Source of the DNA: Erythrobacter oryzae
GTDB lineage: Bacteria > Pseudomonadota > Alphaproteobacteria > Sphingomonadales > Sphingomonadaceae
Direction of reading: 5' to 3'
Assembly: GCF_030271515.1 (NCBI RefSeq)
Contig: NZ_JASCXI010000003.1
Span: forward strand, 558,001 to 622,000
DNA: 64,000 bases
The notes beneath the pieces were generated by a model. The model was not told the DNA's origin, ran no database searches, and saw only the letters and a program-made list of their open reading frames with translations. The position numbers and the translations under genes were made by a program. Below, in pieces: positions 1 through 29,866 of the stretch. How positions within the stretch are numbered: the first letter of the stretch is position 1; each line of letters starts with the position of its first letter.

Positions 1-170
1 AGCGCGTCGGCGGTGCGGATGGCCTCGGCCGCGTCGGCCTCGCCGTCCTCGGGGTGGATCAGGTGGGTGATCTCCCAATCGCCCAGTGTTGCCAGCAGTT
101 CGCCGAAGGGCCCCGCCTCGTAGGGGTGGCCCCCTGAGAGCACCAGCAGCGAACGGCCAGCTTGGGGCAT
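1..170 (-). CDS. ThuA-like domain protein, partial (N-terminus only)
   Basis: Only the first 56 or so codons lie in the window; the rest runs off the left edge. The N-terminus reads MPQAGRSLLVLSGGHPYEAG, followed by a segment with a GDWEITHLIHPED core. This is the usual opening of ThuA-like (class I glutamine-amidotransferase-fold) proteins: a hydrophobic strand, then a small-residue loop with GGHPYE. Its ATG overlaps the TAA of the upstream reductase by one base (TAATG), so the two are probably translationally coupled in one operon. The ThuA family includes sugar-metabolism proteins of unclear enzymology, so no reaction is assigned. The family call is moderate because most of the protein is missing. 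Confidence 0.55.
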   Translation of the reverse strand, partial: MPQAGRSLLVLSGGHPYEAGPFGELLATLGDWEITHLIHPEDGEADAAEAIRTADA

Positions 171-1180
171 TACGCAATTCTCAGGATCATCTTGCCGTCA
201 TTGGTGCCTGCGAACAGTCGCATGAAGCTGTCGAAGGCGTTCTCGAGCCCCTCGTCGATATGCTCGTCGATGGTGAGTTTGCCCTGGGCGGCCCAGACGC
301 CCATCTGCTGCGCGCCCTCGGCGAAGCGGGGGACGTAGTCGGCGACGAGCAGCCCGCGGATATGGGCGCGCTTGACGATCAGTTGCCACAGGTTGCGGAT
401 GCCGCGCGGCTCGGTGTTGTATTCGCTGATGAGCCCGCACAGCCCGACGCGCGAATGGAGGTTGAGGTTCATCAGCCCCGCATCGAGGATGATCCCGCCG
501 ACATTCTCGAAGATCACGTCGACGCCGTCCGGGCAGGTCGCGGCGATGGCGGCGGTGAGGGCGGCTTCGTCCTTGCCGCGGTAGTCGATCGCGGCGTCGA
601 AGCCGTATTTCTCGGTGAGGCGCGCGCACTTGGCCGGGCCGCCCGCGATCCCGACCGCGCGGCAGCCGTGGATCTTTGCCAGCTGGCCGACCAGCGAGCC
701 CACCGCACCCGCCGCGCCGGTCACCAGCACGGTCTCGCCCGCCTTGGGCTCGCACACCTCGAGGAAGCCGAAATAGGCGGTCATCCCCACCGCGCCGAAG
801 ATCGAGAGGTAGTTGGTGACATTGGGTACGAGGCTCGGGTCGATCGGTTGGGTGAAGCCGCCCGCAACGCCGATGGAGTAATCCTCGAGCGCGTTCAGCC
901 CCATCACCCATTGGCCCGGCGCGAACCCTTCCGCGCGGCTTTCCTCGACCACGCCGATAGTGCTCGCCCGCACCGGATCGCCCAAGGGGATCGGCGGCAT
1001 GTAATTGCCCTCGGCATCCATCCACCCGCGCATCGCCGGATCGAGCGAGGCATAGTGGTTGCGGATCAGGAACTGCCCCTCTTCCAGCGCGGGGGTGGGC
1101 TCGGTGACGAGTGCGAAATCCTCCGGAACGGGGGTGCCGTCCGGGCGGCGCTGGAGGAGGAAGCGGCGATTCTGAGGCAT
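170..1180 (-). CDS. NADP-dependent oxidoreductase, Zn-less MDR (prostaglandin/enone reductase-like)
   Basis: A 336-residue medium-chain reductase of the LTB4-dehydrogenase/CurA type, which reduces activated C=C bonds of enones with NADPH. The nucleotide-binding segment reads VLVTGAAGAVGSLVGQLAK, followed by a GIAGGPAKC segment typical of the NADP-selective group. No structural or catalytic zinc cysteine cluster is seen. An ATG directly follows an in-frame TTG; the ATG is taken as the start. It lies 25 bases downstream of the molybdopterin oxidoreductase gene and overlaps the ThuA-like gene, forming one leftward operon. Two paralogues sit at 3467 and 20040. Substrate unknown. Confidence 0.85.
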   Translation of the reverse strand: MPQNRRFLLQRRPDGTPVPEDFALVTEPTPALEEGQFLIRNHYASLDPAMRGWMDAEGNYMPPIPLGDPVRASTIGVVEESRAEGFAPGQWVMGLNALEDYSIGVAGGFTQPIDPSLVPNVTNYLSIFGAVGMTAYFGFLEVCEPKAGETVLVTGAAGAVGSLVGQLAKIHGCRAVGIAGGPAKCARLTEKYGFDAAIDYRGKDEAALTAAIAATCPDGVDVIFENVGGIILDAGLMNLNLHSRVGLCGLISEYNTEPRGIRNLWQLIVKRAHIRGLLVADYVPRFAEGAQQMGVWAAQGKLTIDEHIDEGLENAFDSFMRLFAGTNDGKMILRIA

Positions 1181-1204
1181 CAATTTTTCCCGTTCTGGTT
1201 ATTT

Positions 1205-3343
1205 TCAAGCCGGTTCAAGTTTTACCGGAATGGCGCTTTGGAGGCTCTGCCCGGTGATCGGATCGTAGTCCACCACCTCGCTGACGAGGCGGTTGGTGGA
1301 CGATCCGCGGGTCCGCACATCGTCCTTGCCCGCATCGGCATCGCCATAGGCGTGCGCCATCGACACGATCCCGCGCCGCACCTTGTCGCTTGCCTTCACC
1401 ACCCCGTGGATCGTGGCGTGGGGCGAGGTGATCGCGACCAGCCCGCCTTCCTCCAGCCCCAGCGCCGCGATGTCGTCCGGATGGATGAAAGCGGGGTTGG
1501 TGGTGGTCTTGGCCTGCAGCTTCTTCAAGGGGTGCCCGATCGAGTTGAACCGCGTCTTCGACCGGCGAGAGATCAGGCGGAAGTCGAAGCCTTCGCGCGC
1601 CGCGCTGGCTTCGGCATATCTGAGGATTTCCGAGGGCATCGCCCCCACGGCGAGGTCAAAGCGGTGGAACTCGTTCTCGTCCACCGGCTCCACCTTGGGG
1701 TGCTTTTCGGGATAGAGCACCGCCGCCCCGCCATTGGCCGCGCAGTCCTTGCGCACCTGACTGGGCGGCACAAGGCAGCCGGTCACCGCGAGGTCGAGGA
1801 ACTCCTGCTTGCTGGGCTTGCGATCCATCGGCAGCGGGCCACCCGCAAGGTTCATCTGGATGCCGAGATGGTGCGCCAGCGTCCAGAACATCTCGTATTC
1901 GTCGATGCAGTCGCCCGGCGCCTCGACCACCGCTTCGGTGTAGCGGGCATAGGGCTCCTCGTGCCACCATTCGGAGAGACTGGTGATGTCCTCGCGCTCC
2001 AGGCACTGCGACGGAGCGAGCACCACATTGGCACGTTTGGCGCTGGCGCTCATCCACGGGTCGATCTGCACGAACAGCTCGAGATCGTCGAGCGCGCGGG
2101 TCATTTTTACCTGATCGGGAAAACCCACCACCGGATTGCCACCGACCGAGATCAGCGCGCGCACCTGTCCCTCGCCGGGGGTGAGGATTTCGTCCGCCAG
2201 CACGTTGCAGGGCATCTCCCACCCCAGGTGCCCGAGGCCGCGGAAGCGCGACTTCGGCATCCCCTCCGCCCCGAACATCGGCACGGGCGGGCCGACCTGT
2301 GCGCGGCGGGCGGTCTGGTAGGGGCTGAACACGCCCGGGATAGCGGCCTTCTCGCCCTCCTGCTTGAAGCGCGCGCAGATGGTGTTGAGACACACCACCA
2401 AGTATTCGGTGAGCGTCCCGTTCCCCGCCATTTCGGGGCCGGTGCCGGTGACCGCGCAGCCCTTCGAGCCGCTGGCGAACATCCGCGCGGCGGCGACAAG
2501 CTGATCCTTGTCGAGCCCCGCGCGTGCGGCGGCAACTTCGGGCGGGAAGGCCTTCACCGCTTCGGCCAACTCGTCGAACCCGTCCACGTGGGCCGCAACG
2601 AAATTGCGATCATACAGCCCCTCGGCGATGATCACGTTGAGCATCCCCGCCAGCATCGCCGGGTCCTCGCCGGGCTTAACGGGCAGGTAGATGTCCGCCA
2701 GCCGCGCGACATCGCTCTCGCGCGGGTCGGCGACGATCAGCTTCATGCCCTCGGCCTGCTTGTCGCGGATGCGGCGCGAGGGGCTGAAGGGCGGCACGCC
2801 GCCGACGGGCGAATAGTGCGAGACGATCGGATTGTTGCCGATGAAGAAGGCGACGTCGCTTTCCGAGAAAGTGTTCGGCCCCGCCATCCACTTCCCGTAG
2901 CGCGCGGTGGTGAAGACCTTGGCGGGCTGGTCGAGCGTCACCGAGGTGTAGAAGTTGCGGCTCCCCACGGCCTGCGCGAAGCTGAGCGAAGCCGACATGG
3001 CGGCCGAGTTCTGGAACCCGCCCGAACCCATGAACACCGCCACCGAATGGGGGCCGTATTGGTCGATGATCCGCCGCAGTTCGGACGCGACATGGTCCAG
3101 CGCCTGGTCCATCGGGGTCGAGACGAACTCGCCCTCTGCATTGCGCACCAGCGAGTGGTGCAAGCGGTTCTCGGAGTTGTGGCTGTCGGGCAGCTCACGG
3201 CCCTTCATGCAGGTGTAGCCGCCATAGGCCGGATCGTCCGGATCGCCGCGCACCTCGACGACCTTTCCGTCCATGACATCCACTTCCATCGCGCAATTGG
3301 CATGGCAGAAACGGCAGAAGGTCTTGTGAGTCTGAACGCCCAT
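1205..3343 (-). CDS. Molybdopterin-dependent oxidoreductase (DMSO-reductase superfamily)
   Basis: A 712-residue catalytic subunit with an N-terminal 4Fe-4S motif at C10-x2-C13-x3-C17-x27-C45, then the Mo-bisMGD domains and a C-terminal MGD-binding domain around KTTTNPAFIHPDDIAAL. There is no twin-arginine signal, so it should act in the cytoplasm. No beta (ferredoxin) or membrane subunit is encoded beside it. Single-subunit members of this superfamily include assimilatory nitrate reductases and acetylene-hydratase-like enzymes; the substrate here cannot be told. The ATG has a strong GGGGAGAGA Shine-Dalgarno. It is divergent from a second MDR reductase. MobA, which builds the MGD cofactor, is encoded 1.2 kb to the right, consistent with local cofactor supply. 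Confidence 0.85.
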   Translation of the reverse strand: MGVQTHKTFCRFCHANCAMEVDVMDGKVVEVRGDPDDPAYGGYTCMKGRELPDSHNSENRLHHSLVRNAEGEFVSTPMDQALDHVASELRRIIDQYGPHSVAVFMGSGGFQNSAAMSASLSFAQAVGSRNFYTSVTLDQPAKVFTTARYGKWMAGPNTFSESDVAFFIGNNPIVSHYSPVGGVPPFSPSRRIRDKQAEGMKLIVADPRESDVARLADIYLPVKPGEDPAMLAGMLNVIIAEGLYDRNFVAAHVDGFDELAEAVKAFPPEVAAARAGLDKDQLVAAARMFASGSKGCAVTGTGPEMAGNGTLTEYLVVCLNTICARFKQEGEKAAIPGVFSPYQTARRAQVGPPVPMFGAEGMPKSRFRGLGHLGWEMPCNVLADEILTPGEGQVRALISVGGNPVVGFPDQVKMTRALDDLELFVQIDPWMSASAKRANVVLAPSQCLEREDITSLSEWWHEEPYARYTEAVVEAPGDCIDEYEMFWTLAHHLGIQMNLAGGPLPMDRKPSKQEFLDLAVTGCLVPPSQVRKDCAANGGAAVLYPEKHPKVEPVDENEFHRFDLAVGAMPSEILRYAEASAAREGFDFRLISRRSKTRFNSIGHPLKKLQAKTTTNPAFIHPDDIAALGLEEGGLVAITSPHATIHGVVKASDKVRRGIVSMAHAYGDADAGKDDVRTRGSSTNRLVSEVVDYDPITGQSLQSAIPVKLEPA

Positions 3344-3395
3344 GATCTCTCTCCCCAGGGTATCGGCGAGACTACCACAGGGGCGGGGCTACTCG

Positions 3396-3412: not shown

Positions 3413-3466
3413 TGGAGGGTGGCGCGGCGGCCCCGCAATAGGGCAGGCGAACAGAGGAGACACCCA

Positions 3467-4471
3467 ATGCCCACCACCACCCGCCAATGGCTCCTGAACG
3501 GACACCCGCGCGGCCGCGGGATCGAGATCGAGAATGATTTCAAGCTGGTGGAAACCCAGCTCCCCGATCCCGCCCCGGGCGAGATGCTGTTGAAGACGCA
3601 TTACCTCGGCTTCGATCCGGCGCAGAAGGGCTGGATGGAGAACATCGCCGACTACGTCGCGCCCATGAACATCGGCGACGTGATGCGCGGCAGCGGGATC
3701 GCCGAGGTCGTGGCGAGCAACGGCGGCCGTTTCGCGGTCGGCGACATGGTGTTCGGCACCACCGGCTGGACCGAATATCTTGTGACCGACGGCAAGGAGC
3801 TGACCAGGGTCGAGACCGAGATCTCGCCCACCGCGGTGCTCTCGGTGCTGGGGACGACGGGGCTGACCGCCTATTGCGGGCTGTTCAAGGTCGGCAAGCC
3901 CGTGGCGGGCGATACCGTGCTGGTGAGCGGGGCTGCGGGGGCGACGGGGAGCATCGTCGGCCAGCTCGCCAAGATCGCCGGCTGCCGCGTGGTCGGTATC
4001 GCGGGGGGCCAGGACAAGTGCGACTGGCTGGTGCGCGAGGCGGGCTACGACGCCGCGATCGACTACAAGGCGGGCCGCGTGAAGGAGCAGATCCGCGAGC
4101 TCTGCCCGCGCGGGGTCGACGTGATCTACGACAACGTGGGGGGCAAGATCCTCAACGACATGCTCGCCTGCATCGCCACCGGCGCGCGGGTGGTGATCTG
4201 CGGCGGGATCAGCCGCTACGAGACCGGCAGCCTGCCGGCGGGCCCCGAGAACTACTTCAACCTCGTCTTCCGCCGCGGGACGATGGCGGGCTTCATCGTG
4301 CTCGACTGGGCGAGCGAGTTCCCTGGCATCCGCAAGCGGCTCGAGGGCTTCGTCAAGGATGGCAGCCTCAAGTATCAGGAGGACATCCAGCACGGCTTCG
4401 AGAATGCCCCGGCGACCTTGCAGCGGCTGTTCTCGGGGCAGAACCGCGGCAAGCAGATGCTGAAGCTGTAA
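3467..4471 (+). CDS. NADP-dependent oxidoreductase, Zn-less MDR (second copy)
   Basis: A 334-residue homologue of the reductase at 170-1180, with the same order of motifs: GYDAAIDYK and VLVSGAAGATGSIVGQLAK, then GIAGGQDKC and a DVIYDNVGGKILND segment. It is expected to reduce an alpha,beta-unsaturated carbonyl with NADPH. The ATG is preferred over an in-frame GTG 48 bases upstream because an AGAGGAGA ribosome-binding site lies 6-7 bases before it. It is transcribed away from the molybdopterin enzyme from a shared 120-base divergent region. A mirrored intergenic repeat follows its stop. The exact substrate is unknown. Confidence 0.85.
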   Translation: MPTTTRQWLLNGHPRGRGIEIENDFKLVETQLPDPAPGEMLLKTHYLGFDPAQKGWMENIADYVAPMNIGDVMRGSGIAEVVASNGGRFAVGDMVFGTTGWTEYLVTDGKELTRVETEISPTAVLSVLGTTGLTAYCGLFKVGKPVAGDTVLVSGAAGATGSIVGQLAKIAGCRVVGIAGGQDKCDWLVREAGYDAAIDYKAGRVKEQIRELCPRGVDVIYDNVGGKILNDMLACIATGARVVICGGISRYETGSLPAGPENYFNLVFRRGTMAGFIVLDWASEFPGIRKRLEGFVKDGSLKYQEDIQHGFENAPATLQRLFSGQNRGKQMLKL

Positions 4472-4475
4472 CCCT

Positions 4476-4580: not shown

Positions 4581-5108
4581 CTAGATCAGATCCTCGGGGT
4601 AATTGACGTTCATCAGCGCCCGGGGAAGCTCGACCCGCCGCGCGCCCACATGGTCGGCAAAGCGGTAGAGCGACCTGCCGCCGCCTGCGAGAAACGCCTC
4701 CAGCAAAGGGGCGGCGCTCACCGGCCACAGCCCCACCACCGGCTGGCTCTCGACGATCGCCGCGCCTTCTCCCGCCAGCGATGTGGCGAGATCGAAGGGC
4801 AGGTCGGGCACGTCCACGCCCGCTGACAGCACCCCGTCGAAGTCCTGCTCCCCTGCATGGCGCAGCGCCGCGGCGAGGCCTCCCAGAGGGCCCAGCCCCG
4901 GCTCGGGCCAGTCGGGCAGGCAGGCGAACCCCGCCTCCTCGCGCCCGCACACCACCACGGCTGCGCACTGCGCCGACAGCGCCGCCGCCACACGGTCGAT
5001 CAGCCGCGCGCCCTCGAACAGCGCCTGCGCCTTGTCGCTGCCGAAGCGGCGCGCCTGTCCTCCGGCGAGGATGGCTCCCAGCAGCCTAGTCGAACGCCTC
5101 GGTTGCAT
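4581..5108 (-). CDS. mobA: Molybdenum cofactor guanylyltransferase MobA
   Basis: Transfers GMP from GTP to molybdopterin to make the MGD form used by DMSO-reductase-type enzymes. The N-terminus carries the nucleotidyltransferase signature GAILAGGQARRFGSDKA, followed by GLGPLGGLAAAL and a central DVPDLPFDL acidic segment. An ATG 12 bases before the first strand (RRSTRLLGAI) is chosen, giving 175 residues. Longer in-frame starts back to 5144 exist but push further into the upstream gene. Even with the chosen start it overlaps the ABM-domain gene by about 23 bases, so the two are co-transcribed. Its presence near the molybdopterin oxidoreductase supports a shared function. Confidence 0.88.
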   Translation of the reverse strand: MQPRRSTRLLGAILAGGQARRFGSDKAQALFEGARLIDRVAAALSAQCAAVVVCGREEAGFACLPDWPEPGLGPLGGLAAALRHAGEQDFDGVLSAGVDVPDLPFDLATSLAGEGAAIVESQPVVGLWPVSAAPLLEAFLAGGGRSLYRFADHVGARRVELPRALMNVNYPEDLI

Positions 5109-5427
5109 TGCCATCGGCATTGTAGACCGGCCCCTCCGCGTCAACCCGGTACTTCTTGCTGACCGCCGCGGTGATCCCGAACTGGCCGATATGGTCGCGC
5201 ATCCCCGTATAGGCCGGGTCGCGGAAGTGGGCGGCGAGGGCCTCTTCGCTCTCCCATTCCTCGAACACGTTGACCCGCGCGGGGTTCATCGAGCAGGCGC
5301 TCCAGTCGTAGTGGATGCAGCCCTTCTCGGCGAGCGCTGCCTCGATATGCGGACGGGCGCTGCGCAGGGCCTCCTCGCGCTGGGCCGGGTCGAGGTCGAT
5401 CTGGGCGGAGATAAGGATTTTTGCCAT
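5086..5427 (-). CDS. ABM-domain protein (putative quinol monooxygenase family)
   Basis: A 113-residue single antibiotic-biosynthesis-monooxygenase domain, a ferredoxin-like dimeric alpha+beta barrel. The typical features are an N-terminal strand MAKILISAQIDL, a central FEEWESEEALAAHF segment and a C-terminal strand. Proteins of this fold include cofactor-free quinol oxygenases (YgiN), heme-degrading enzymes and many of unknown role. It lies 5 bases after an NTF2-like gene and overlaps mobA, all in one leftward operon. A second ABM gene in the island (14499) is also paired with a SnoaL-like gene, which suggests the two folds work in the same type of step. Function inferred only from fold. Confidence 0.75.
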   Translation of the reverse strand: MAKILISAQIDLDPAQREEALRSARPHIEAALAEKGCIHYDWSACSMNPARVNVFEEWESEEALAAHFRDPAYTGMRDHIGQFGITAAVSKKYRVDAEGPVYNADGNATEAFD

Positions 5428-5432: not shown

Positions 5433-5843
5433 TCAGCCTTCCACGCCGAATTCGGCGATGATCTTGAACTTCCGGCTGGTGAACAGCCAGCGGCCATCGA
5501 TCTTCTTCAATTCGTCTTCATAGAGCCCGCCGACATGGCGCGCCTTGCCGTCCTTGGGCTTCAGGATCTCCTGCGTCTGCACCCGCGCCTTGGCGGTGTC
5601 GCCGGTGACTTCGATCATGCAGGGCACGCAGTGGAAGCTCACCGCCTCGAGCCCTGCCATGGCTCCGTTCCAGAACGCCACAATGGCTTCCTTGCCCTCG
5701 GTCTGGTGCCCCATCAGGTCCCAATGGGCGTCGTCGGCCCAGACCGTGGCCCAGGTCGCGGCGTCGATCCGCACCACGCCATCGGCATAGGTGCCATTCA
5801 ATTCATGGATCGCCACGCGATCCTCGAGGGGTCCTGTGAACAT
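5433..5843 (-). CDS. NTF2/SnoaL-like protein
   Basis: A 136-residue cone-shaped alpha+beta protein with the family pattern: an N-terminal helix (DRVAIHELNGTYADGV), a WATVWADDAHWDLMG turn and C-terminal strands with a WLFTSRKFKIIAE end. The fold covers ketosteroid isomerases, SnoaL cyclases, dehydratases and ring-hydroxylating dioxygenase beta subunits. No Rieske alpha subunit is adjacent, so an isomerase/dehydratase or binding role is more likely than a dioxygenase beta subunit. The ATG has a GGGAGAGAGC ribosome-binding site. It is first in the operon with the ABM gene and mobA, and divergent from an SDR gene. One of four such proteins in the island. Confidence 0.75.
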   Translation of the reverse strand: MFTGPLEDRVAIHELNGTYADGVVRIDAATWATVWADDAHWDLMGHQTEGKEAIVAFWNGAMAGLEAVSFHCVPCMIEVTGDTAKARVQTQEILKPKDGKARHVGGLYEDELKKIDGRWLFTSRKFKIIAEFGVEG

Positions 5844-5963: not shown

Positions 5964-6776
5964 ATGATGGGACAACTCGCAGGCAAGAGCGCCGTCATTC
6001 TGGGCGCGGCGTCGGAGGGCAACATGGGCCAGACCATCGCCCGCCTGTTCGCCAAGGAGGGCGCCAAGGTGATGGTCGCGGGGAGGAAGGAGGCGCCGCT
6101 CGCTGCGCTCGCGGCGGAGATCGGCGGGGCCTATGCCCTGTGCGACATCGCCAAGAAGCCCGAGGTCAACGCGATGGCCGACAAGGCCGCGGCCACCTTC
6201 GGGCGGGTCGATATCGCGATCAACACCACCGGCTGGGGGCTGCTCGCGAGCCTCGAGGAGATCACCGACGAACAGCTCGACCAGATCGTCGACCTGCAGT
6301 TCAAAGGGGTGCACCACTTCCTTCAGGCCTTCGTCCGGGTGATGAGCGCGCAGAGTCCCACCGGCGGCTCGCTGATCTCGCTGTCCTCGGCGACCACCAA
6401 GGCGATCATCACCAACCACGCGGCCTATATCGGCACCAAGCGCGGGTCCGAGGCGCTGATCGAGTGCGTGGCGAATGACTACGGCCACCTCGGGATCAAG
6501 GCCAACACGGTCTCGCCGGCCTTCACCGACAGCCCGATGACCCACGAGAGTTTCCAGGTGCCGGGCCTGACCGACGCCTTCCTGCCGCGCTATCCGATGG
6601 GACGGCTCAACACGGTCGACGACGTTGCCCACGCCTGCCTGTGGCTCAGCACCGATCGGGCCTACGTCACGGGGGCCAATATCCAGCCCAACGGGGGCCT
6701 TATCATGCGCGGCAATCCGCAGGCGCACGATGTGGCGGCGGCGGTCGGCGCGGCGATGGCGAAGCTGCAAGGCTAG
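5964..6776 (+). CDS. Short-chain dehydrogenase/reductase (SDR)
   Basis: A 270-residue classical-type SDR. The cofactor loop is GAASEGNMG, and the catalytic Ser141/142, Tyr155 and Lys159 (YIGTK) are present. The usual NNAG strand-4 motif is replaced by NTTG (residues 87-90). The motif stabilises the central sheet, so this may mark a divergent subfamily. An ATGATG start follows AGAGAGGAGA; the longer upstream frame is rejected because it runs through the promoter region and lacks family similarity. It is expected to oxidise or reduce an alcohol/ketone in the island pathway. Convergent with another SDR across a 500-base repeat-bearing gap. Confidence 0.85.
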   Translation: MMGQLAGKSAVILGAASEGNMGQTIARLFAKEGAKVMVAGRKEAPLAALAAEIGGAYALCDIAKKPEVNAMADKAAATFGRVDIAINTTGWGLLASLEEITDEQLDQIVDLQFKGVHHFLQAFVRVMSAQSPTGGSLISLSSATTKAIITNHAAYIGTKRGSEALIECVANDYGHLGIKANTVSPAFTDSPMTHESFQVPGLTDAFLPRYPMGRLNTVDDVAHACLWLSTDRAYVTGANIQPNGGLIMRGNPQAHDVAAAVGAAMAKLQG

Positions 6777-6795
6777 GCCGCGCGGCGGATATCTC

Positions 6796-6894
6796 GCGAA
6801 GTTCACGAAGTTCACATTGCAAAAGGTGCATTCCTACAGGAATTCGCGAGCGCAATCATGGACGTGCTAGCGAAAAGCGAAGTTCACACTGTGC
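6796..6894. repeat. 99-base direct repeat, copy A
   Basis: Begins GCGAAGTTCACGAAG and ends AGCGAAGTTCACACTGTGC. By hand alignment about 70 of 99 positions match copy B at 6910-7008, without gaps, and the two ends are best conserved. The internal ATTCCTACAGGAATTC is itself near-palindromic. Nature unknown. Confidence 0.75.
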
Positions 6895-6909
6895 GCGACG
6901 CTGCTTGCG

Positions 6910-7008
6910 GCGAAGTTTACAAAGCTGACAGTGTAAACTTCGCATTCCTACCGGAATTCCGCTTTTCCCTCATGGGGTTGTAGCGGAAAAGCGAAGTTGA
7001 CACTGTGC
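6910..7008. repeat. 99-base direct repeat, copy B, with internal inverted repeats
   Basis: The second copy starts 114 bases after the first. It contains a perfect 12-base inverted repeat, GCGAAGTTTACA (6910-6921) and TGTAAACTTCGC (6932-6943). It also has a 9-base one, CGCTTTTCC (6960-6968) and GGAAAAGCG (6985-6993). The pair could fold as two consecutive hairpins in RNA. It lies between convergent genes, so a bidirectional terminator or a dispersed REP/MITE-like element are both possible. Confidence 0.7.
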
Positions 7009-7279
7009 TTGTTGCTGCGCGAACCAGTCCGGTGCGAGCGGGTCGGTGCAGGGGGCGAGCGGACGATGGGAAAGAGCCACCCGGCAGCACAGCCGGGCCG
7101 CTTCTTTACCCTGTCGGCGCGCTGTAGGAAAACGGCTTCACGCGCGCTACGCGCACCGCCGCGCCAACGGGCTTCAGCTTCAGGCCACGGCGGCAGCCGT
7201 CCGGCTGCATTTTCGCGTTCGGGAGGGCGCTCGCAGGCTGGCGCCTGCTCGCGTTCGGGACCGGTGCCCGGGCGCAGCC

Positions 7280-22238: not shown

Positions 22239-23468
22239 CTACTCCGCCGCCTGCCGCTGTTCCTGCGCGAAGATCTGCACCAGATCATCGTCGCTGGCGT
22301 TGACCAGCCGCTCCACCCACTGGTGGAAGACCTGTCCGCCTTTCTCGTTCTTGCCGAACAGCACTTCCTTCATCAGTCCTGACGCGAGGGCCTGCTGCTG
22401 GCGCTTGCCCGTCGCGTAATCCTCGTCGCGCACCACGATCTCGAGGAAGTTGAACTGGTCGTGGGCGGCCTGGACCTGCTCGGGGGTCTCGGGCTGGTTT
22501 TCCATGACGTAGAACTGGGTGGTGTAGCTCTCGCCCACCGCGTCGCCCGGGAAGAGCTGGCTGATCATCGCCCCGCGCTGGCCGCCGCCGTAGAAGCTGG
22601 CGATCGAAATGTGCGGGAAGATCGTCCACACGCCCTGCACCAGCACTTCCTGCGGCAGCTCGTCGTCGCTCATCGCTTCCAGATCGAGTGCCTGGTCGTC
22701 GTCGCCCTGCACCTTGATCGCAAACTTCGACGGGGTCGAGAGGCGCTGGTGGGGGCCGAAGGCGAAGTAGTTGGCGCGGTTGTAGAAATCGGCGCCGAAG
22801 GTGTCCTTGTGGAGCACCGGCAGGTGGTAGAAATCGAGATAGCCGTCGTACGCCGTCTTCCAGTTCGGCCCCGCCAGCGTGCGCTGCGAGAACAGCGTCC
22901 AGCCCTCGAATTCGAAGGCCTTCAGCAGTTCGTCATAGCCGCACAGGTAATCGGCGATCGAGAGCTTGGAATGGGGATCGAGCGTCACCCAGATCAGGCC
23001 GGCATTCTCGTAGACCGGGAACTTGGTGAGGCAATGCTGGCTCTTGTCGATCTTGCCGAAGTCCTTGGCATCAGCCACGCCGATCAGGTCGCCGTCCGCC
23101 TTGAAGGTCCAGCCGTGATAGCCGCAGGTGAAGCGGCTGGCATTGCCGCAGCCGCTCGCCAACGGGTTGCCGCGGTGGGTGCACATGTTGAGGAAGGCGC
23201 CCATGCTGCCGTCCTTCTGGCGGCTCAAGAGCAGCGGCACGCCGCAGATGTCCATCGCCTTGAAATCGCCCGGATTGGGAAGCTCGCACGAGGGCGCGAC
23301 CATCAGCGGCAGGCGGCGGAAGATCTGCTTCTTCTCGGTCTCGAACACATCCGGGTCGGTATAGGCGCTCGCCGGAATGCGCACGACCTCGTCGGCATAC
23401 TCCATCGTGTCGGCCGCGCCGTGGGCGACCAGATTGCGGGTCATTTCGACCAGCGTTTCGCGTGACAT
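22239..23468 (-). CDS. Rieske non-heme iron oxygenase alpha subunit (second)
   Basis: 409 residues. The 2Fe-2S ligands are C96-x-H98 and C115-x2-H118 (CTHRGNPL...CGYHGW) and the catalytic iron site is YDGYLDFYHLPVLHKD with H215 and H220. The ATG follows GGGAGGAACGGC; a longer upstream frame is rejected as it reads through the control element. It differs from the oxygenase at 9877 in the catalytic segment (LDFYHLPVLH versus FNESYHLPFVH), pointing to a different substrate position. No beta subunit or electron-transfer partner is adjacent. A monocistronic unit beside a TonB receptor that could import the substrate. Confidence 0.9.
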   Translation of the reverse strand: MSRETLVEMTRNLVAHGAADTMEYADEVVRIPASAYTDPDVFETEKKQIFRRLPLMVAPSCELPNPGDFKAMDICGVPLLLSRQKDGSMGAFLNMCTHRGNPLASGCGNASRFTCGYHGWTFKADGDLIGVADAKDFGKIDKSQHCLTKFPVYENAGLIWVTLDPHSKLSIADYLCGYDELLKAFEFEGWTLFSQRTLAGPNWKTAYDGYLDFYHLPVLHKDTFGADFYNRANYFAFGPHQRLSTPSKFAIKVQGDDDQALDLEAMSDDELPQEVLVQGVWTIFPHISIASFYGGGQRGAMISQLFPGDAVGESYTTQFYVMENQPETPEQVQAAHDQFNFLEIVVRDEDYATGKRQQQALASGLMKEVLFGKNEKGGQVFHQWVERLVNASDDDLVQIFAQEQRQAAE

Positions 23469-23611: not shown

Positions 23612-26074
23612 TCAGAACTTGAAGCTGACTTCCGCGAAGATCTGACGGCCCCGGTTCTGGGTCAGCACCAGATCGTCGCCGCGCGGGCGGCCCTGGGCAT
23701 CGAGCCCGCCGGGCAGGAACGGACGCCCGCCGCTGGTGATGACGAAGATCTTGTCGGTGAGGTTCTGCCCCACCAGCGAGAGCTTCCACTTGCCGTCCGG
23801 ATGGCCGATCGAGATGTTGGCGTCGAACAGCCAGAAGCTCGGCTGGACATAGTCGTTGAGCGTGGTCTCGTCGGTGATGTAGCCGTCATTGTAGGCGGCG
23901 TTGCCCGACAGGAACAGCTCGAGGCTGTCGCCGAGCGGCACCGTCCAGTCGGCGGCGATGTTGCCGGCCCACTCGGGCGCCTGGCTGCCGCGCCGCCCGT
24001 TGAGGTCGATCACCCCGCCCTGGCCGCCCGGCTGCAGGAACTGCGCGGTGTATTGCGCATCGAGGTAGGACAGGTTCGCCGAGAGGTTGAGCCCTTCGAC
24101 CGGGGTGCGCCAGCCGGCTTCCAGATCGACCCCCTTGGTGGTCAGCTCGCCCGCGTTGCTAGTGACGAACTGGATGGTCACCGCGTTGAAGTTCTGCACC
24201 TGCAGATCCTCGAACACGTAGTAGTAGCCGGTGAGGTTCAGGGTCACGTCGCGGTCGGCCCACTGCGACTTGATCCCGACTTCCCCGCCCTTGGCCTTTT
24301 CCGACTGGAAGATCAGCGCGCTGAAGTCACCCGACAGCGCCGCCTGGCTGAGGCTGTTGGAGGGCAGCGCCGAGTTGTCGATCCCGCCCGACTTGAAGCC
24401 GGTCTTGAACGAGGCGAAGATGTTGATGTCCTCGCTCGCCTTGTAGCGCAGGGTGACTTCGGGCGAGAAGTTGTCGTCGGCGAAGTTGATCGGGCCCGAG
24501 AAGAAGCCCGGACGCACGAAGCCCGGCCCCTGCAGGAAGGTGTGCAGGTAGGGCACCGCGATGGTCTGGACCTTGCGCTCGTCGGTCCAGCGCACCCCGC
24601 CGGACAGTTCGAGCGCTTCGGTGATGTTCCAGCTCAGGCTGCCGAAGAACGACAGGGCTTCGGTCTTGGTGGTGTGGGTCTTGTCCCAGTCATAGGTGAA
24701 GCCGGTCACCGGGTCAGGCCCGAGGAACGAGATGTTCACCCCCTGCTGGGCGGTGTCGAAGATGAAGGTGCGGTCTTCGTAGAACGCACCGAGCATGAAG
24801 TTGATCGGCCCGTCGAAGTCCGAGGCGAGACGCAGTTCCTGGCTGTACTGCTCGAGCGCGTTGCGCGGGTCCGAACAGCCCGCAGCGCCGGGCAGGCGCA
24901 CGCCGCCGGGGCCGGTCAGGAAGCCGCCATAGGCGTAGCAGTCGAAGTCGACCGCATCCATGTTGAGCAGGCCCGTGACCGAGGTCAGGGTCAGTGTCTC
25001 GCTGAGGTCGAGGTCGAACTGCAGGCGCCCGAACCAGATTTCGGTCTCGCCGAAAGGCACGCCGCCCCGGCCCGCCGCCTTCGAGGGCGTCGGCACGCCC
25101 GGTGCCAGCGGCACGGCGGCATCGCTGAGGTAGTAGCGCTGGTCGAAGACGTTGCAGTCATAGCCCGCCGGGATCGAGACCGCGCCGCCCAGCAGCACGA
25201 CGGGATCGGGCGTGCCATTGGCGCCGCAGAAGATTTCCGCGGTGCCGATCGCGCCGTCGTTCTCGTTCTTGGTGTATTGCACCTTGAGGTTGGCGCGGAA
25301 GGTGTCGGTCGGGTTCCAGTCGAGCGTCACGCGGCCGATGAAGTCGGTGAGGCCGCGCTTCTGGTTGACCGCCGGTGTGTTCGCCTGAAGCAGCTGGAAT
25401 TCGTCGATGTCGTTGAACTGCGCGGCGACGCGGATGCCCAGCGTGTCGGTGATCGGGCCCGAGATATAGCCCGAGACGAGGTAGCCCTTCTCTTCGAACT
25501 CATAGGAGCCGCGGGCGCCGAATTCCCAGGTCGAGGTCGGGTTGGCCGAACGCAGCGAGAGCACGCCGGCGGTCGCCGACTTGCCGAAGAACAGCGACTG
25601 CGGCCCGCGCAGCACGTCGACCTGCTCGACGTCGAAGAAGCCGGCCTGCACCATGCGCATGGTCGAGACCACGACGCCGTCATATTCGAAGGCGACCGCC
25701 GAATCGAAGGCTGCCGAGATGTTCGACGAGCCGACGCCGCGAAGCGAGAGCTGGCCGCCCGAGCCCGAGCCGCCGACCTGCACGTTGAGGGTCGGCACGC
25801 GGCTGGTGAAGTCGGCGACCTGGTCGATCGAGTAGCGCTCGAGCGTCTCGCCGCCGATCGCGGTGACGGTGACGGGGACTTCCTGGAGGGTTTCGTTCTG
25901 GCGGCGGGCCTGAACGACGATCACCGGAACGTCGTCCTCCGCCTCGGCGCTCTCCTGCGCGTCCTGGGCGAAGGCGGCGCTGGGCATCGCGGCAAGCCCG
26001 CTCAGCGCGGCCCCGCACAGAAGGGCACGGCGAAGGCCGACGCCGGATGCAACTCGGGCACGAAAAGTCTTCAT
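23612..26074 (-). CDS. TonB-dependent outer-membrane receptor
   Basis: 820 residues. A signal peptide ends SAAFAQ, a plug domain begins VIVVQARRQNETLQEVPVTVTAI and contains VDVLRGPQSLFFGKSATAGVL, and a 22-strand-type barrel ends in the aromatic terminus QIFAEVSFKF. The plug lacks features of siderophore (FhuA-type) receptors and resembles the large sphingomonad receptor group that imports organic substrates. It lies within the catabolic island between a Rieske oxygenase and an SDR, so it probably takes up the pathway substrate. The ATG follows GGGGAGAGAGG. A strong hairpin follows its stop. Confidence 0.92.
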   Translation of the reverse strand: MKTFRARVASGVGLRRALLCGAALSGLAAMPSAAFAQDAQESAEAEDDVPVIVVQARRQNETLQEVPVTVTAIGGETLERYSIDQVADFTSRVPTLNVQVGGSGSGGQLSLRGVGSSNISAAFDSAVAFEYDGVVVSTMRMVQAGFFDVEQVDVLRGPQSLFFGKSATAGVLSLRSANPTSTWEFGARGSYEFEEKGYLVSGYISGPITDTLGIRVAAQFNDIDEFQLLQANTPAVNQKRGLTDFIGRVTLDWNPTDTFRANLKVQYTKNENDGAIGTAEIFCGANGTPDPVVLLGGAVSIPAGYDCNVFDQRYYLSDAAVPLAPGVPTPSKAAGRGGVPFGETEIWFGRLQFDLDLSETLTLTSVTGLLNMDAVDFDCYAYGGFLTGPGGVRLPGAAGCSDPRNALEQYSQELRLASDFDGPINFMLGAFYEDRTFIFDTAQQGVNISFLGPDPVTGFTYDWDKTHTTKTEALSFFGSLSWNITEALELSGGVRWTDERKVQTIAVPYLHTFLQGPGFVRPGFFSGPINFADDNFSPEVTLRYKASEDINIFASFKTGFKSGGIDNSALPSNSLSQAALSGDFSALIFQSEKAKGGEVGIKSQWADRDVTLNLTGYYYVFEDLQVQNFNAVTIQFVTSNAGELTTKGVDLEAGWRTPVEGLNLSANLSYLDAQYTAQFLQPGGQGGVIDLNGRRGSQAPEWAGNIAADWTVPLGDSLELFLSGNAAYNDGYITDETTLNDYVQPSFWLFDANISIGHPDGKWKLSLVGQNLTDKIFVITSGGRPFLPGGLDAQGRPRGDDLVLTQNRGRQIFAEVSFKF

Positions 26075-26387: not shown

Positions 26388-27167
26388 ATGGCGGGACGGG
26401 TAGCGGGCAAGGTTGCGCTCGTGACAGGCGGGGCAATGGGGCTGGGCAAGGCCGATTGCGAGGCGCTGGCGCGCGAGGGCGCCAAGGTGATCGTCACCGA
26501 CCGCGATGCCGAACTCGCCCACAAGGTCGCCGACTCCATCGGCGGCGATGCGATGGCGCTCGACGTCACCAGCGAAGAGCAGTGGATCGAGGTGATGCGC
26601 GCGGTCGAGGAACGCCACGGCGGGCTCGACATCCTCGTCAACAATGCCGGCAACGTGATCTTCGAGAGCATCGAGGATTGCAGCCTCGCCCATTTCCGGC
26701 TGCATCTCGACATCCACGTGGTCGGCACCTTCCTCGGGTGCAAATATGCCGTGCCGCTGATGAAGCATCGCCACCAGCAGGTCGGCGGGGGCGGCTCGTC
26801 GATCGTCAACATGGCCTCGACCGCGGCGTTGATGGGATATGGCAACATCCCGGCCTATGCCGCGTGCAAGGCGGGGATCGCGGGGATGACCCGCAGCCTC
26901 GCGATCGACTTTCAGGACAAGGGCTACGGCATCCGCGTCAACGCGCTCGCGCCGGGCGGGATCGAGACGCCGATGGTTATGGGCATCTCGGGCCGCGGCG
27001 GACAGACGCCGATGGAGATTCCCGAAGGCCCGCTGCCGATGGATGCGCTCGGCCACCCCAAGGACGTGGCGGGCTGCGTGCTGTTCCTCGCCTCGGACGA
27101 GGCGCGCTTCCTCAACGGGTTGACGATCCCGGTCGACAACGGCCTGTGGGCGAGACCCCATCACTGA
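26388..27167 (+). CDS. Short-chain dehydrogenase/reductase (SDR)
   Basis: 259 residues, classical SDR: cofactor loop TGGAMGLG (13-20), NNAG at 85-88, catalytic Ser144, Tyr157 and Lys161 (YAACK), and a DxD-like segment VTDRDAE favouring NAD. The long upstream in-frame stretch is the control region and is not coding; the ATG lies after GGGAGAAGG. It is followed 31 bases later by an MFS permease in the same direction, probably one transcript. It likely oxidises a hydroxy intermediate delivered through the adjacent receptor and permease. Confidence 0.88.
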   Translation: MAGRVAGKVALVTGGAMGLGKADCEALAREGAKVIVTDRDAELAHKVADSIGGDAMALDVTSEEQWIEVMRAVEERHGGLDILVNNAGNVIFESIEDCSLAHFRLHLDIHVVGTFLGCKYAVPLMKHRHQQVGGGGSSIVNMASTAALMGYGNIPAYAACKAGIAGMTRSLAIDFQDKGYGIRVNALAPGGIETPMVMGISGRGGQTPMEIPEGPLPMDALGHPKDVAGCVLFLASDEARFLNGLTIPVDNGLWARPHH

Positions 27168-27198
27168 GGATCGCAAACCCGGCGCATACCGTTGGTAT

Positions 27199-28443
27199 GT
27201 GCTCGGCCTGCTGACGCTGACCAGTGCGTTCAGCGTCGCCGACCGGCTGGTGTTCTCGATCCTGGTGCAGGACATCAAGGCCGAATTCGGCCTGTCCGAC
27301 ACCGAGCTCGGCCTGCTCGGAGGGGCGGCCTTCTCGGTGATCTACGTGCTGGCGGGCTTCCCCGCCGCACGCCTCGCCGACCGCTCGACCCGCAAGAACA
27401 TCGTCGCCGCCGCGATCAGTTTCTGGAGCCTGATGACCGCGGCCTGCGGCATGGCGACGGGGTTCTGGACGCTGTTCCTCGCGCGCACCGGCGTCGGCGT
27501 GGGCGAGGGCTGTTCGGGGCCTTCCAGCCAAAGCCTCGTCGCCGACTATTTCACCCGCGCCGAGCTCGCCAAGGCGATGGGCTTCCTCACCATCGGGGCG
27601 AGCATGGGCACCGCCGGGGGCCTGCTGATCGGCGGGCAGCTCGCCGAGGCGTTCGACTGGCGCTGGGCCTTCGTGCTGATGGGCCTGCCGGGCGTGGCGC
27701 TGGGCGCGATCATCTTTCTGACGATGTGCGAACCGGTGCGCGGGCGTTATGCGCCAACAGGCACCGACATGACCCAGCGCCCGCTTGGGGAGACGATCCG
27801 CAGCCTTGTCACCAACCGCGTCTTCATGGGGCTGGCGCTGGGCTGGGCGGTGCAGATCATGATCGGCTACGCGCTTGCCTTCTGGATGGCGCCGATCATG
27901 CTGCGCGAATTCGCCATCTCGACCGGGGACGTGGGTCTCTATCTCGGCCTCACCTTCTTCCTCGGCGGCATCCCGGGGCCGATCCTCGGCGGCTATGTCA
28001 CCCACTGGCTGTGCCTTCGCGACGAGCGCTGGCGCGCGTGGCTGCCTGGAGTGACGAGCCTCGGCGCGGTGGTGCCGCTGGCGCTGAGCCTGACCTCGGG
28101 CGACTTCACCACCTTCCTCCTGTGGTTCGGCTTCGCATATGCAATCTATGTCGCTTCGCAGGCGGGGATCATGTCGGGCATCCAGGCCGCGGTCGAACCG
28201 GCGAGCCGCGGCTTTGCGGTCGCCATCGCGCTGTTCTTCAACAACCTCATCGGGCAGGCGCTGGGCCTCGCCGTGACCGGCGCGCTGAGCGATGCGCTGA
28301 CCCCGACGCAGGGCCCGGCGGCGCTTGCCATCGCGGTGTTCGCGGTGTGCCTTGCGGCAGGCGTAACCTCGATGGCGATCTTCGCGTGGACCGCCGCGCA
28401 AATGGGGCCGAGCGGCTATCTGGAGAAGATGCGCGGGGGCTAG
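27199..28443 (+). CDS. MFS transporter
   Basis: 414 residues from a GTG, with about 12 hydrophobic segments. The MFS motif A is PAARLADRSTRKN in the loop after helix 2. The first helix (LLTLTSAFSVADRLVFSIL) follows the GTG almost at once. The frame stays open upstream to 27124 without ATG or GTG and encodes RKPGAYRWY just before, a usual cytosolic leader for this family. The true start may therefore be a rare codon such as ATC at 27160. It resembles organic-acid/aromatic permeases and probably moves the substrate or an intermediate across the inner membrane. Its stop overlaps the convergent SDR stop (CTAG). Confidence 0.85.
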   Translation: MLGLLTLTSAFSVADRLVFSILVQDIKAEFGLSDTELGLLGGAAFSVIYVLAGFPAARLADRSTRKNIVAAAISFWSLMTAACGMATGFWTLFLARTGVGVGEGCSGPSSQSLVADYFTRAELAKAMGFLTIGASMGTAGGLLIGGQLAEAFDWRWAFVLMGLPGVALGAIIFLTMCEPVRGRYAPTGTDMTQRPLGETIRSLVTNRVFMGLALGWAVQIMIGYALAFWMAPIMLREFAISTGDVGLYLGLTFFLGGIPGPILGGYVTHWLCLRDERWRAWLPGVTSLGAVVPLALSLTSGDFTTFLLWFGFAYAIYVASQAGIMSGIQAAVEPASRGFAVAIALFFNNLIGQALGLAVTGALSDALTPTQGPAALAIAVFAVCLAAGVTSMAIFAWTAAQMGPSGYLEKMRGG

Positions 28444-29219
28444 AACCCGGGGTGGATCGCCAGCGCGCCGCCGTCGACCAGCATGTCGGCCCCCGTCATG
28501 AAGGGGCATTCGTCGCTGGCGAGGAAAGCGATCGCGGCGGCGGTCTCCGACGGATCGGCGAGGCGGTTGAGCGGCGAGGTCTTTGCCACCATCGCGAGAA
28601 AGCCCGGCATCTGCGCTTCGGTCGCGTCGAGAATGCCGGTGTGGGTCGCGCCCGGGATCACCGTGTTGCAGCGGATGTTGAGCCCCGCCTGCGCGCACCA
28701 TGTCGCCACGGATTTACTCAATGCCCGCACCGCCGCCTTGCTCGCCGAATAGCCGACATCGGTGGGCAGCGGGGTGATCGCGGTGGTGGAGGCAATGTTG
28801 ACGATTGCCCCTTTCGCGCCGCCGGGATTGTCGCGCATCGCGGCGATGGCGGCGCGGCATCCGGCCATCGTGCCGGTGAGGTTGACGGCGAGCACCTTGT
28901 CCCACGCGGCGAACATTGCGGCATCGTCATGGTCGCCGATCCCTGCGCCCGAGACCATCCCGGCATTGTTCACCAGAATGTCGAGCCGCCCGAAGGCCGC
29001 CACCGCCTCGGCGACGATCTGCGGCCACAAAGCGCGGTCCGACACGTTCTGCACCGCAAAGCGTGCGCCCGCCGCGTCGCACAGCGCCTGCCCGCGCGCC
29101 GCATCGACATCGGTGCCGAGCACCTCCACCCCGTCCGCCCGCAGCCGCCGTACCGTCGCCGCGCCGATCCCCGAGGCGCAGCCGGTGACGATGGCGACCT
29201 TGCCCTTGAGGTCGGGCAT
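28440..29219 (-). CDS. Short-chain dehydrogenase/reductase (SDR)
   Basis: 259 residues: TGCASGIG cofactor loop (12-19), GTDVDA acidic turn suggesting NAD(H), NNAG at 84-87, Ser144, Tyr157 and Lys161 (YSASK), and an MTGADMLVDGGALAIHPGF end. The ATG overlaps the TAA of the GST gene (TAATG); an upstream in-frame extension inside GST is rejected. Steroid and bile-acid hydroxysteroid dehydrogenases belong to this group, as do many others; no substrate is claimed. Co-transcribed with GST. Confidence 0.88.
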   Translation of the reverse strand: MPDLKGKVAIVTGCASGIGAATVRRLRADGVEVLGTDVDAARGQALCDAAGARFAVQNVSDRALWPQIVAEAVAAFGRLDILVNNAGMVSGAGIGDHDDAAMFAAWDKVLAVNLTGTMAGCRAAIAAMRDNPGGAKGAIVNIASTTAITPLPTDVGYSASKAAVRALSKSVATWCAQAGLNIRCNTVIPGATHTGILDATEAQMPGFLAMVAKTSPLNRLADPSETAAAIAFLASDECPFMTGADMLVDGGALAIHPGF

Positions 29220-29866
29220 TATTCGGCTTGGCTCCAGATCGCGGCACACGGCCGCTGGTTGTGGGTGGCGACGAAGCGCGCGAGGTTGTCGGCACCCTCC
29301 GGGATCTTCCAGCCCACGGTGAAGCCGAAATTGGCGAAGGCGAAGATCAGCAGATCGGCAAAGGTGAAGCGGCCCAAGGCGATGTTGTCCTTCTCGCCGA
29401 GATAGCTGTCGAACAGCCGCCACTTCTCGTCGGCCATCGCCGAAAGCTCCGCGCCCGCGCCCACCGAAACCACGCTCATGCGCGGCTCGAACATCGGGCG
29501 GCCCGCGCCTGCACGGAAGCCCATCGTCATGGGAACCACGACTTCCTGATCGAACAGCCGCGCCCACTTGCGCACCGTGGCGCGCTCCACCGGGGTCTCG
29601 CCGAACAGGTTGGGGGTGGGATGCAGCTCCTCGACATATTCGCAGATCGGCCAGCTTTCGGTGAGGCAGGTGCCGTCCTCCAGCTCGAGCGTCGGCGTGG
29701 TGCCCTGCGGGTTCCTCGCCATATAGCCCGCATCCTGCCGGTTCTGGCCGGTGATGATGTCGTAATGCACCCGCGCGAAATCGCGGCCTTCCTCGAGCCC
29801 CTTCTCGACCATGAACATCCGCACCAGGCGGGGGTTGGGGCCGAGGCTGGAATGCAGGGTGATCAT
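29219..29866 (-). CDS. Glutathione S-transferase family protein
   Basis: 215 residues. The N-terminal thioredoxin-like domain starts ITLHSSLGPNPRLVRMFMVEKG with Ser residues at the usual catalytic position. The glutathione gamma-glutamyl site is in LTESWPICEYVEE. An all-helical C-terminal domain follows. It may conjugate, isomerise or de-conjugate a reactive (epoxide, quinone or maleyl-type) intermediate. It is first in the leftward operon with an SDR. The upstream region has a weak GGAAAAT element that could be a further member of the A-rich set. Confidence 0.87.
   Translation of the reverse strand: MITLHSSLGPNPRLVRMFMVEKGLEEGRDFARVHYDIITGQNRQDAGYMARNPQGTTPTLELEDGTCLTESWPICEYVEELHPTPNLFGETPVERATVRKWARLFDQEVVVPMTMGFRAGAGRPMFEPRMSVVSVGAGAELSAMADEKWRLFDSYLGEKDNIALGRFTFADLLIFAFANFGFTVGWKIPEGADNLARFVATHNQRPCAAIWSQAE

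Follow-up and report, generated by a model that had tools for sequence, protein, structure and literature searches.

The window considered here is a 64,000-nucleotide stretch of the genome of Erythrobacter oryzae (RefSeq assembly GCF_030271515.1; 3.56 Mb in 7 contigs) and corresponds to positions 558001-622000 of contig NZ_JASCXI010000003.1 (C3:558001-622000). Its positions 1-29866 hold the right three quarters of a cluster of about 39 genes that occupies 38.7 kb in total (C3:549145-587866). Judged from gene content and conservation, this block is very probably one conserved catabolic unit that operates without the 9,10-seco route; a ring-bearing terpenoid-type substrate is proposed below on a more tentative footing. 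In a preliminary description, a single catabolic island had been delimited at 170-29866. Its right end was upheld: the GST gene located there closes the conserved block and is also the last gene in common with the cluster of a related genome (G018). The left end had to be moved, as the edge of the window is no natural end and the cluster runs 8.9 kb farther, to C3:549145. Every item of the inventory given for 170-29866 was recovered using Pfam, a second ABM-domain gene (14499-14900) included.

Unless noted otherwise, coordinates are those of the window, proteins were classified with Pfam, and fractions over 32 give the presence of a gene among 32 related loci (defined below). The leftmost gene in the window is the 5' part of a ThuA-like gene (1-170, minus strand; whole gene C3:557394-558170; 32/32), which was recognized in a joint translation, the ThuA domain being matched by the part outside the window. 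There follow the genes for MDR1, an enone reductase-like protein with an ADH_N_2 domain that resembles CurA (170-1180, minus); MoOR, a single-subunit oxidoreductase of the Mo-bisMGD family with a 4Fe4S motif (1205-3343, minus; Pfam and PDB alignments); MDR2, another enone reductase-like protein (3467-4471, plus); a MobA-like nucleotidyltransferase (4581-5120, minus, start uncertain; 30/32); the first ABM-domain protein (5086-5427, minus); SnoaLa, a SnoaL_4 protein (5433-5843, minus); SDRa (5964-6776, plus); SDRb (7280-8056, minus); and a KstD/ChcC1-like flavin adenine dinucleotide-dependent ring desaturase, hereafter KstD (8261-9880, plus; Pfam, PDB, NCBIfam and alignment). Apart from the MobA-like gene, all of these were found in 32/32 loci, and those from MDR1 to KstD make up the core.

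The next segment mixes accessory with more constant genes. Rieske oxygenase A, of the Ring_hydroxyl_A type (9877-11208, minus; 14/32), CMD-like protein a (12475-13062, minus; 17/32), P450b (13189-14499, plus, start uncertain; 17/32) and the second ABM-domain protein (14499-14900, plus; 17/32) are the accessory ones; the last overlaps P450b by its start and stop codons and was located using a relative's protein as the query, followed by Pfam. P450a (11210-12475, minus; 30/32) is interspersed with them. Farther right are SnoaL_4 protein b (14879-15418, plus; 30/32), SnoaL_2 protein c (15533-15886, minus; 27/32), CMD-like protein b (16007-16540, plus; 25.5 bits against a cut-off of 23; 24/32), a VOC protein with a Glyoxalase_4 domain (16899-17417, minus; 25/32), an AMP-binding acyl-CoA synthetase that exceeds the cut-off of the NCBIfam subfamily PRK06187 (17419-19011, minus; 30/32) and a 4HBT thioesterase (19100-19507, plus; 29/32). 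SnoaL_4 protein d (19504-20043, minus; at least 25/32), MDR3, again enone reductase-like with an ADH_N_2 domain (20040-21041, minus), and an NmrA-like protein (21187-22134, plus) were also found in relatives' loci. Rieske oxygenase B (22239-23468, minus), likewise of the Ring_hydroxyl_A type and with carnitine monooxygenase as its best PDB match, was found in G180, G018, G054, G096 and G127. For these last four genes, counts in the 32 loci are lower bounds, as they lie near the ends of the 10-kb flanks. A TonB-dependent receptor (23612-26074, minus, start uncertain) recurs in G180 and G018 and also in loci L079 and L097. SDRc (26388-27167, plus), an MFS permease (27199-28443, plus), SDRd (28440-29219, minus) and the terminal GST (29219-29866, minus) complete the block.

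Leftward from the ThuA-like gene, the cluster continues with genes for an LEH/SnoaL protein, a third P450, an acyl-CoA dehydrogenase and an OB_ChsH2 protein, and then for a thiolase-fold protein, an SDR, a second ThuA-like protein, a second acyl-CoA dehydrogenase and an SDR whose end is at C3:549145 (Pfam). A beta-oxidation/C-C cleavage module is thereby placed beside the ring desaturation, oxygenases and CoA activation that are linked within the window, which bears out the earlier proposal of a single catabolic island. Past the left end, genes resembling those for tryptophan dioxygenase and kynureninase were noted by eye. Three of the genome's seven P450 matches fall in the cluster, and no regulator gene was seen among its 39 genes (Pfam).

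The distribution of the cluster was examined in 199 genomes of the family (that of E. oryzae and 198 others) with the KstD-like protein as the query. Relatives of at least 61% identity were encountered in nine of the 198, and the cluster is present in seven of these nine (KstD 71-81%), i.e. in at least 7 of the 198. It is present entirely or for the most part in G180, G018, G054, G096 and G127 and, in G082, as far as the 8-kb stretch compared reaches; in G033, the left half only was found within the 60-kb stretch compared. The other two genomes (G153 and G089; KstD 61-63%) are without the cluster. A named collection yielded 158 confirmed KstD relatives, and the loci of the best 80 split into two sets, 46 with KstD identities of 71-93% and 34 with 55-63%. 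The closest named relatives, with identities reaching 93%, come from Erythrobacter and Porphyrobacter. Cultured strains with the block include Erythrobacter ramosus JCM 10282 (L060), E. cryptus DSM 12079 (L076) and E. sanguineus DSM 11032 (L118). Both 10-kb flanks are complete in 32 of the 46 loci, and in all 32 the genes for ThuA, MDR1, MoOR, MDR2, ABM, SnoaLa, SDRa, SDRb and KstD occur in identical order and on identical strands. Near the 34 more distant KstD genes, none of the other eight was found at 45% identity or above, with the exception of MDR2 (9/34).

The preliminary description had proposed a gene-neighborhood search and had held that dispersal of the homologues in relatives would speak against an island; since the linkage is conserved to this degree, dispersal is not what was observed. 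Most of the 32 loci are from Erythrobacter or Porphyrobacter (by title), so shared descent accounts for part of the conserved order. The weight of the argument for a unit consequently rests on the cross-genus cases, because the neighbors outside the block differ there. Relatives of KstD (28 records) and MoOR (7 records) were also found on plasmids; at the E-value limits used, all are below 60% identity, so that the block itself was not encountered on a plasmid. In two loci from Rhodobiaceae/OCS116 (L130 and L132), a KstD relative (55%) lies beside relatives of the Rieske, SnoaL and P450 genes, possibly a distant version of the cluster.

The best PDB match of the flavoprotein is 7p18, a 3-oxosteroid 1-dehydrogenase. 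Three tyrosines, which we take to be the KstD active site, align with those of 7p18 and never vary among the aligned rows (87/87, 87/87 and 85/85, certain genomes being counted twice, as a scanned genome and as a named locus). The nearest NCBIfam model is that of 4-oxocyclohexanecarboxylate 2-dehydrogenase (ChcC1; 444.6 bits, below the equivalog cut-off of 1000), with 3-ketosteroid 1-dehydrogenase (KstD) just behind (433.3 bits, below the cut-off of 789). A ring ketone as the substrate of this predicted desaturase is well supported by these comparisons, and a four-ring substrate is not. Because the enzyme is as close to ChcC1 as to KstD, a polycyclic substrate is not required.

Among the other enzymes, MDR1 and MDR2 are nearest to curcumin reductase (CurA; 324 and 334 bits, respectively; NCBIfam cut-off 440), while MDR3 was scanned with Pfam only. 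The GHE motif of zinc-containing MDRs occurs in none of the three, in accordance with their earlier labeling as zinc-less. MoOR carries Molybdopterin, 4Fe4S and Molydop_binding domains, which places it in the Mo-bisMGD (dimethyl sulfoxide reductase) family. When its alignments were read by eye, an Asp was found where 7qv7 has Cys and formate dehydrogenase H (1aa6) has Sec; this Asp sits in the motif VTLDQPAK and is invariant in 45/45 aligned rows. The alignment with acetylene hydratase is shifted at the metal-ligand position. On this reading, MoOR lacks the Cys/Sec metal ligand that marks formate dehydrogenases.

The two acyl-CoA dehydrogenases encoded left of the window are nearest to the large (400 bits, cut-off 624) and small (206 bits, cut-off 653) subunits of pimeloyl-CoA dehydrogenase; such dehydrogenases are enzymes of dicarboxylic acids. 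The thiolase-fold protein has a subunit of benzoylsuccinyl-CoA thiolase (7pxp; 159 bits) as its best PDB match, with an SCP2-thiolase next (154 bits). As in that enzyme (BbsAB), the thiolase-fold protein and an OB-fold partner are encoded side by side; BbsA is the OB-fold protein. Unlike in BbsAB, the catalytic His of the GHP motif is replaced by Glu (GEP), and the HDxF-type motif is replaced by QDTES. Both replacements, as well as the retained Cys, were seen in 12/12 aligned rows, so that of the full catalytic set of BbsB/SCP2-type thiolases (nucleophilic Cys plus His residues), the Cys is present and the His residues are not. Structure matches of the P450s and Rieske proteins were also considered as guides to the substrate and were uninformative.

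No match to the KshA_C domain of KshA was obtained in the E. oryzae genome, and neither BphC_D1 (type I extradiol dioxygenases of the HsaC/TesB type) nor LigB was matched anywhere in it at an E-value of 0.001, in agreement with the earlier remark that a meta-cleavage dioxygenase is absent. The same models served as positive controls elsewhere: KshA_C scored over its cut-off in 39 and BphC_D1 in 36 of the 199 family genomes, and 4 of 14 control genomes had a LigB match. KshA_C and BphC_D1 are likewise absent above cut-off from six of the seven other cluster genomes; this absence is weaker evidence in G082 and G018, because their assemblies are incomplete (66% and 85%), and G127 has one BphC_D1 match under the cut-off. 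G033 is the sole cluster genome of eight (E. oryzae included) in which either domain scored above cut-off, and there the KshA and BphC genes are separated from the cluster by at least about 0.8 Mb, a circular contig being allowed for. Both Rieske proteins of the island matched the Ring_hydroxyl_A catalytic domain and not KshA_C. An aromatic lower pathway was sought in the E. oryzae genome in a search limited to LigB and the intradiol family; the former gave no match and the latter gave one, on another contig (C4:204276) and unlinked to the block.

Because KshA and both the type I and LigB extradiol dioxygenases are missing from the genome, a 9,10-seco steroid route is unlikely; in its canonical form it was rejected. 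An aromatic intermediate opened by extradiol cleavage is disfavored by the BphC_D1 and LigB results. The earlier suggestion of a polycyclic ketone (steroid, bile acid, terpenoid or polyketide) thus survives in part: the ring ketone is supported, the steroid or bile acid degraded by 9,10-seco/extradiol chemistry is not, and several rings are not demanded by the desaturase.

The embedding of a carotenoid-oxygenase-family gene in related clusters suggests a terpenoid substrate in preference to a steroid. Related Novosphingobium clusters share with the island KstD (62-63%), MDR2 (75-77%), the thiolase-fold protein (80-82%), SDR2 and NmrA. In two of them (L147 and L158), the oxygenase gene adjoins MDR1 amid homologues of the acyl-CoA dehydrogenase, ThuA, P450 and SnoaL genes; the L147 protein scored 412 bits for PF03055 (Pfam), and that of L158 is 97% identical to it. 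PF03055-family genes lie beside homologues of MDR1, MDR2, MoOR or the acyl-CoA synthetase in L147, L158, L168, L169, L170 and L172. Within the island proper, a relative of the oxygenase (73%) is located between MoOR and MDR2 in L096, and another (75%) is found at the cut end of the locus L094, just before MDR2. When the 199 family genomes were scanned with the oxygenase, ten matched at an E-value of 1e-110, six of them at more than 60% identity. In four of these (G001, G095, G157 and G090), its neighbors include MDR2 (76-78%), the acyl-CoA synthetase (46-49%) and MoOR (60-61%); three of the four also have MDR1 there, and two have ThuA.

In a tree of 27 rows, the linked oxygenases and the copies of G180 and G089 formed one clade of 10 rows with support of 100/99; the program warned of long branches elsewhere in the tree. 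Excerpts from PMC8191317 assign roles in lignostilbene dioxygenase to Phe-59, Tyr-101 and Lys-134, the Tyr/Lys pair binding the stilbene. In the nine full rows of the clade, Phe-59 is kept, the Tyr-101 position holds Phe (eight rows) or Leu (one), and the Lys-134 position holds Met (9/9). In a neighboring clade, taken to be of the stilbene type, Tyr and Lys are retained in 4/4 rows. The clade enzyme is therefore unlikely to need a phenol. The same Phe and Met were seen in two sister rows (G113 and G038; identity 44-46%), so that this pair is not unique to the linked genes. Compared with LSD4, NOV1 and the apo-carotenoid 13,14 dioxygenases, the relatives' oxygenase belongs to the same PF03055 family and keeps the Glu adjacent to the Lys-134 position; it differs in the replaced Tyr-101 and Lys-134 equivalents, and its gene does not occur in this window.

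These observations suggest, at somewhat less than even confidence, that the block is a catabolic cluster for a ring-bearing terpenoid-type ketone or carboxylic acid, most likely of the apocarotenoid/ionone type. The narrower assignment to an apocarotenoid-type substrate is a plausible candidate of slightly lower standing. In such a pathway, the substrate would be taken up by the TonB receptor and the MFS permease, hydroxylated by the P450s and Rieske oxygenases, and converted to a ketone by SDRs. The KstD/ChcC1-like flavoenzyme would introduce a double bond next to the ring ketone, and the three CurA-like reductases would remove enone double bonds. SnoaL/LEH proteins may add or remove water, and MoOR, with its Asp in place of Cys/Sec, may carry out a water-dependent step. 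The acid would be activated by the acyl-CoA synthetase; the ring would be opened with no aromatic intermediate, and C-C cleavage by the PimC/PimD-like acyl-CoA dehydrogenase pair and the BbsAB-like thiolase-fold/OB-ChsH2 pair would follow. Only in relatives would the clustered carotenoid-oxygenase-family enzyme make the starting aldehyde or ketone. A bolder extension, which we regard as rather unlikely, is that bacteria widely use these clusters to consume the cyclohexenyl ends of carotenoids (apocarotenoids, ionones): in some carriers, the polyene would be cut by the oxygenase that lacks the phenol-binding residues, and the gem-dimethyl ring would be opened and broken down by the desaturase, the enone reductases, the Asp-ligated Mo enzyme and the unusual thiolase-fold C-C lyase, again with no aromatic intermediate. 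Among the papers listed in a literature search, judged by their titles and the starts of their abstracts and with subscription journals mostly outside its reach, neither a description of this cluster nor a bacterial ring-degradation route for carotenoid breakdown products was found. Abscisic acid was also considered as a substrate, and none of the papers listed in that connection dealt with this cluster.

Several findings weigh against an apocarotenoid. The E. oryzae genome has no member of the oxygenase clade at an E-value of 1e-110, and only 1 of the 32 full-flank loci (plus the cut locus L094) carries one. Clade members above 60% identity are confined to six of the 198 other family genomes and are linked to MDR/MoOR homologues in four of the six, three of which (G001, G095 and G157) are of one genus. 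In G180 and G089, the gene stands apart from the island, beside an aldehyde dehydrogenase gene (by Pfam in G180, by eye in G089) and a TonB receptor gene whose product is about 48-50% identical to the island's receptor. The four Novosphingobium cases came up through looking at the cluster. Clade members scored higher with the lignostilbene model (366-385 bits) than with that of the apo-carotenoid cleaving dioxygenase (301-319 bits), all under cut-off; for the latter, three clade members were scanned against an equivalog cut-off of 675 (NCBIfam). Proteins of the PF03055 family, whatever their clade, were matched in 101 of the 199 family genomes and in seven of the eight cluster genomes, and being so common they are hardly informative by their mere presence; E. 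oryzae itself has two matches, of which the copy at C2:788433 belongs to another clade (33%). Best PDB matches of the P450s include steroid C26-monooxygenases. Finally, no NCBIfam equivalog that names a substrate was over cut-off among the matches listed for the 20 of 39 island proteins scanned.

It is appreciably possible, though we favor the terpenoid ring ketone, that some other alicyclic or polycyclic substrate (a non-carotenoid terpenoid, a naphthenic-type acid or a polyketide) is degraded by the same general chemistry, the oxygenase of the relatives being a side recruitment. In favor of this are the absence of the oxygenase clade from E. oryzae and nearly all island loci and the fact that the desaturase is equally near to the model of a monocycle-acting enzyme, ChcC1. 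Against this stands the linkage of the oxygenase to the MDR/MoOR core in Novosphingobium, where two cluster architectures have it, in one further genus and in G090. Cyclohexanecarboxylate aromatization by ChcC1/ChcC2 shares with the island an FAD-dependent ring-ketone desaturase, and ChcC1 is the nearest model by score; unlike that system, the island has one desaturase only, and its score is less than half the cut-off. Abietane (dit) clusters of Pseudomonas and Burkholderia serve terpenoid catabolism with a P450, a CoA ligase, SDRs and a thiolase. They use an extradiol dioxygenase, unlike E. oryzae, in whose genome none was found.

Catabolism of a steroid, sterol or bile acid, in a variant that dispenses with KshA and extradiol cleavage or replaces these steps, is improbable. 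Clusters for the 9,10-seco route are known in Pseudomonas, Comamonas, Rhodococcus and Sphingobium Chol11, according to excerpts from PMC8399759. The island resembles them in KstD-type desaturation (with the three tyrosines and 7p18 as best match), a CoA ligase, the acyl-CoA dehydrogenase pair, the thiolase-fold and OB/ChsH2 (DUF35) proteins, which recall steroid side-chain modules, and SDRs; the P450 matches noted above also favor a steroid. It departs from them in lacking KshA and extradiol dioxygenase matches in its own genome and, when gene content (and not order) is compared, in having the Mo enzyme, three MDRs, five SnoaL/LEH proteins and two ThuA proteins in addition. The type of the Rieske proteins and the distance of the G033 KshA and BphC genes from the cluster argue in the same direction, as does the Cys retained by the island's thiolase-fold protein, unlike the Sal2/Ltp2 aldolases as portrayed in the same excerpts. 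That the block is a patchwork of unrelated catabolic operons, neighbors by chance, is quite improbable: the accessory genes are patchy (14-17 of the 32 loci), MFS, SDRc, SDRd and GST were found only in G180 and G018 among the stretches compared, and G033 showed just the left half, but the left arm is invariant in 32/32 loci and common to several genera with different flanks. A biosynthetic (tailoring) role has very little probability. P450s, SnoaL and ABM proteins, and SDRs occur in polyketide and terpenoid biosynthesis too, but among the 39 genes Pfam revealed no synthase, cyclase or carrier protein, and acyl-CoA dehydrogenases, a thiolase fold, a CoA ligase and a TonB receptor are present instead.

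Bacteria of the Erythrobacter and Porphyrobacter type, many of them aquatic, frequently occur alongside algae and cyanobacteria. An oxidative cluster of 39 genes that is so tightly conserved, and that so many of their genomes contain, marks a large gap in knowledge of their diet, and if a carotenoid breakdown product is indeed the substrate, the block would supply the genes for that carbon flow. Two odd enzymes merit study in their own right: the thiolase-fold protein, which has the Cys and lacks the customary histidines, and the single-subunit Mo enzyme with Asp at the metal-ligand position.

A LuxR-family gene with a GerE domain (Pfam) was noted in L142. Its relatives adjoin the left end of the cluster in G018, G054, G096 and G127 and lie within about 2 kb of the cluster in G033 and G180. 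In E. oryzae, the relative (69%) is at C3:78910-79719 and has as neighbors a VOC gene, a third Rieske gene (80665-82092) and an SDR gene. This satellite set (C3:78910-84186; L174/L175) is about 465 kb from the island; because a comparable set adjoins the island in G180, it appears to be a part of the island that has become separated in E. oryzae. The 500-base gap between the two SDR genes contains, at 6790-7010, several near-repeats of GAAGTT(C/T)ACA and two near-copies of ATTCCTAC(A/C)GGAATTC, perhaps regulatory (by eye).

Next to related clusters, genes for the E1 alpha and E1 beta subunits of a 2-oxoacid dehydrogenase were observed (G180:C1:1845642-1847827; G018:C29:9142-11338; L142, 5565-7765; L172, 3507-5697). 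They are accompanied by a lipoyl-like protein of 76-78 residues (76 in G180 and G018; by eye), with no E2 seen beside them; the E1 domains were assigned by Pfam for L142 and L147 only. In L168 (499-2891), two genes lie about 4 kb from the oxygenase/MDR/MoOR cluster: one for a carotenoid 3,4-desaturase, CrtD (702.8 bits against an NCBIfam cut-off of 580), and a CrtC-like one that stays below its cut-off (252.8 bits against 400). Similar genes occur in L169 and L170; this closeness may reflect only a pigment-gene neighborhood. L173 (8231-18442, from G180:C1) holds two carotenoid-oxygenase-like genes (the second of which was recognized only through a 30% match), an aldehyde dehydrogenase gene and a TonB receptor gene, with genes of the phytanoyl-CoA dioxygenase and 2-hydroxyacid dehydrogenase families directly adjacent. 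Elsewhere on the E. oryzae contig, at C3:521811-535744 (L005), a run of minus-strand genes resembles, by eye, a gene-transfer-agent or prophage head-tail cluster.

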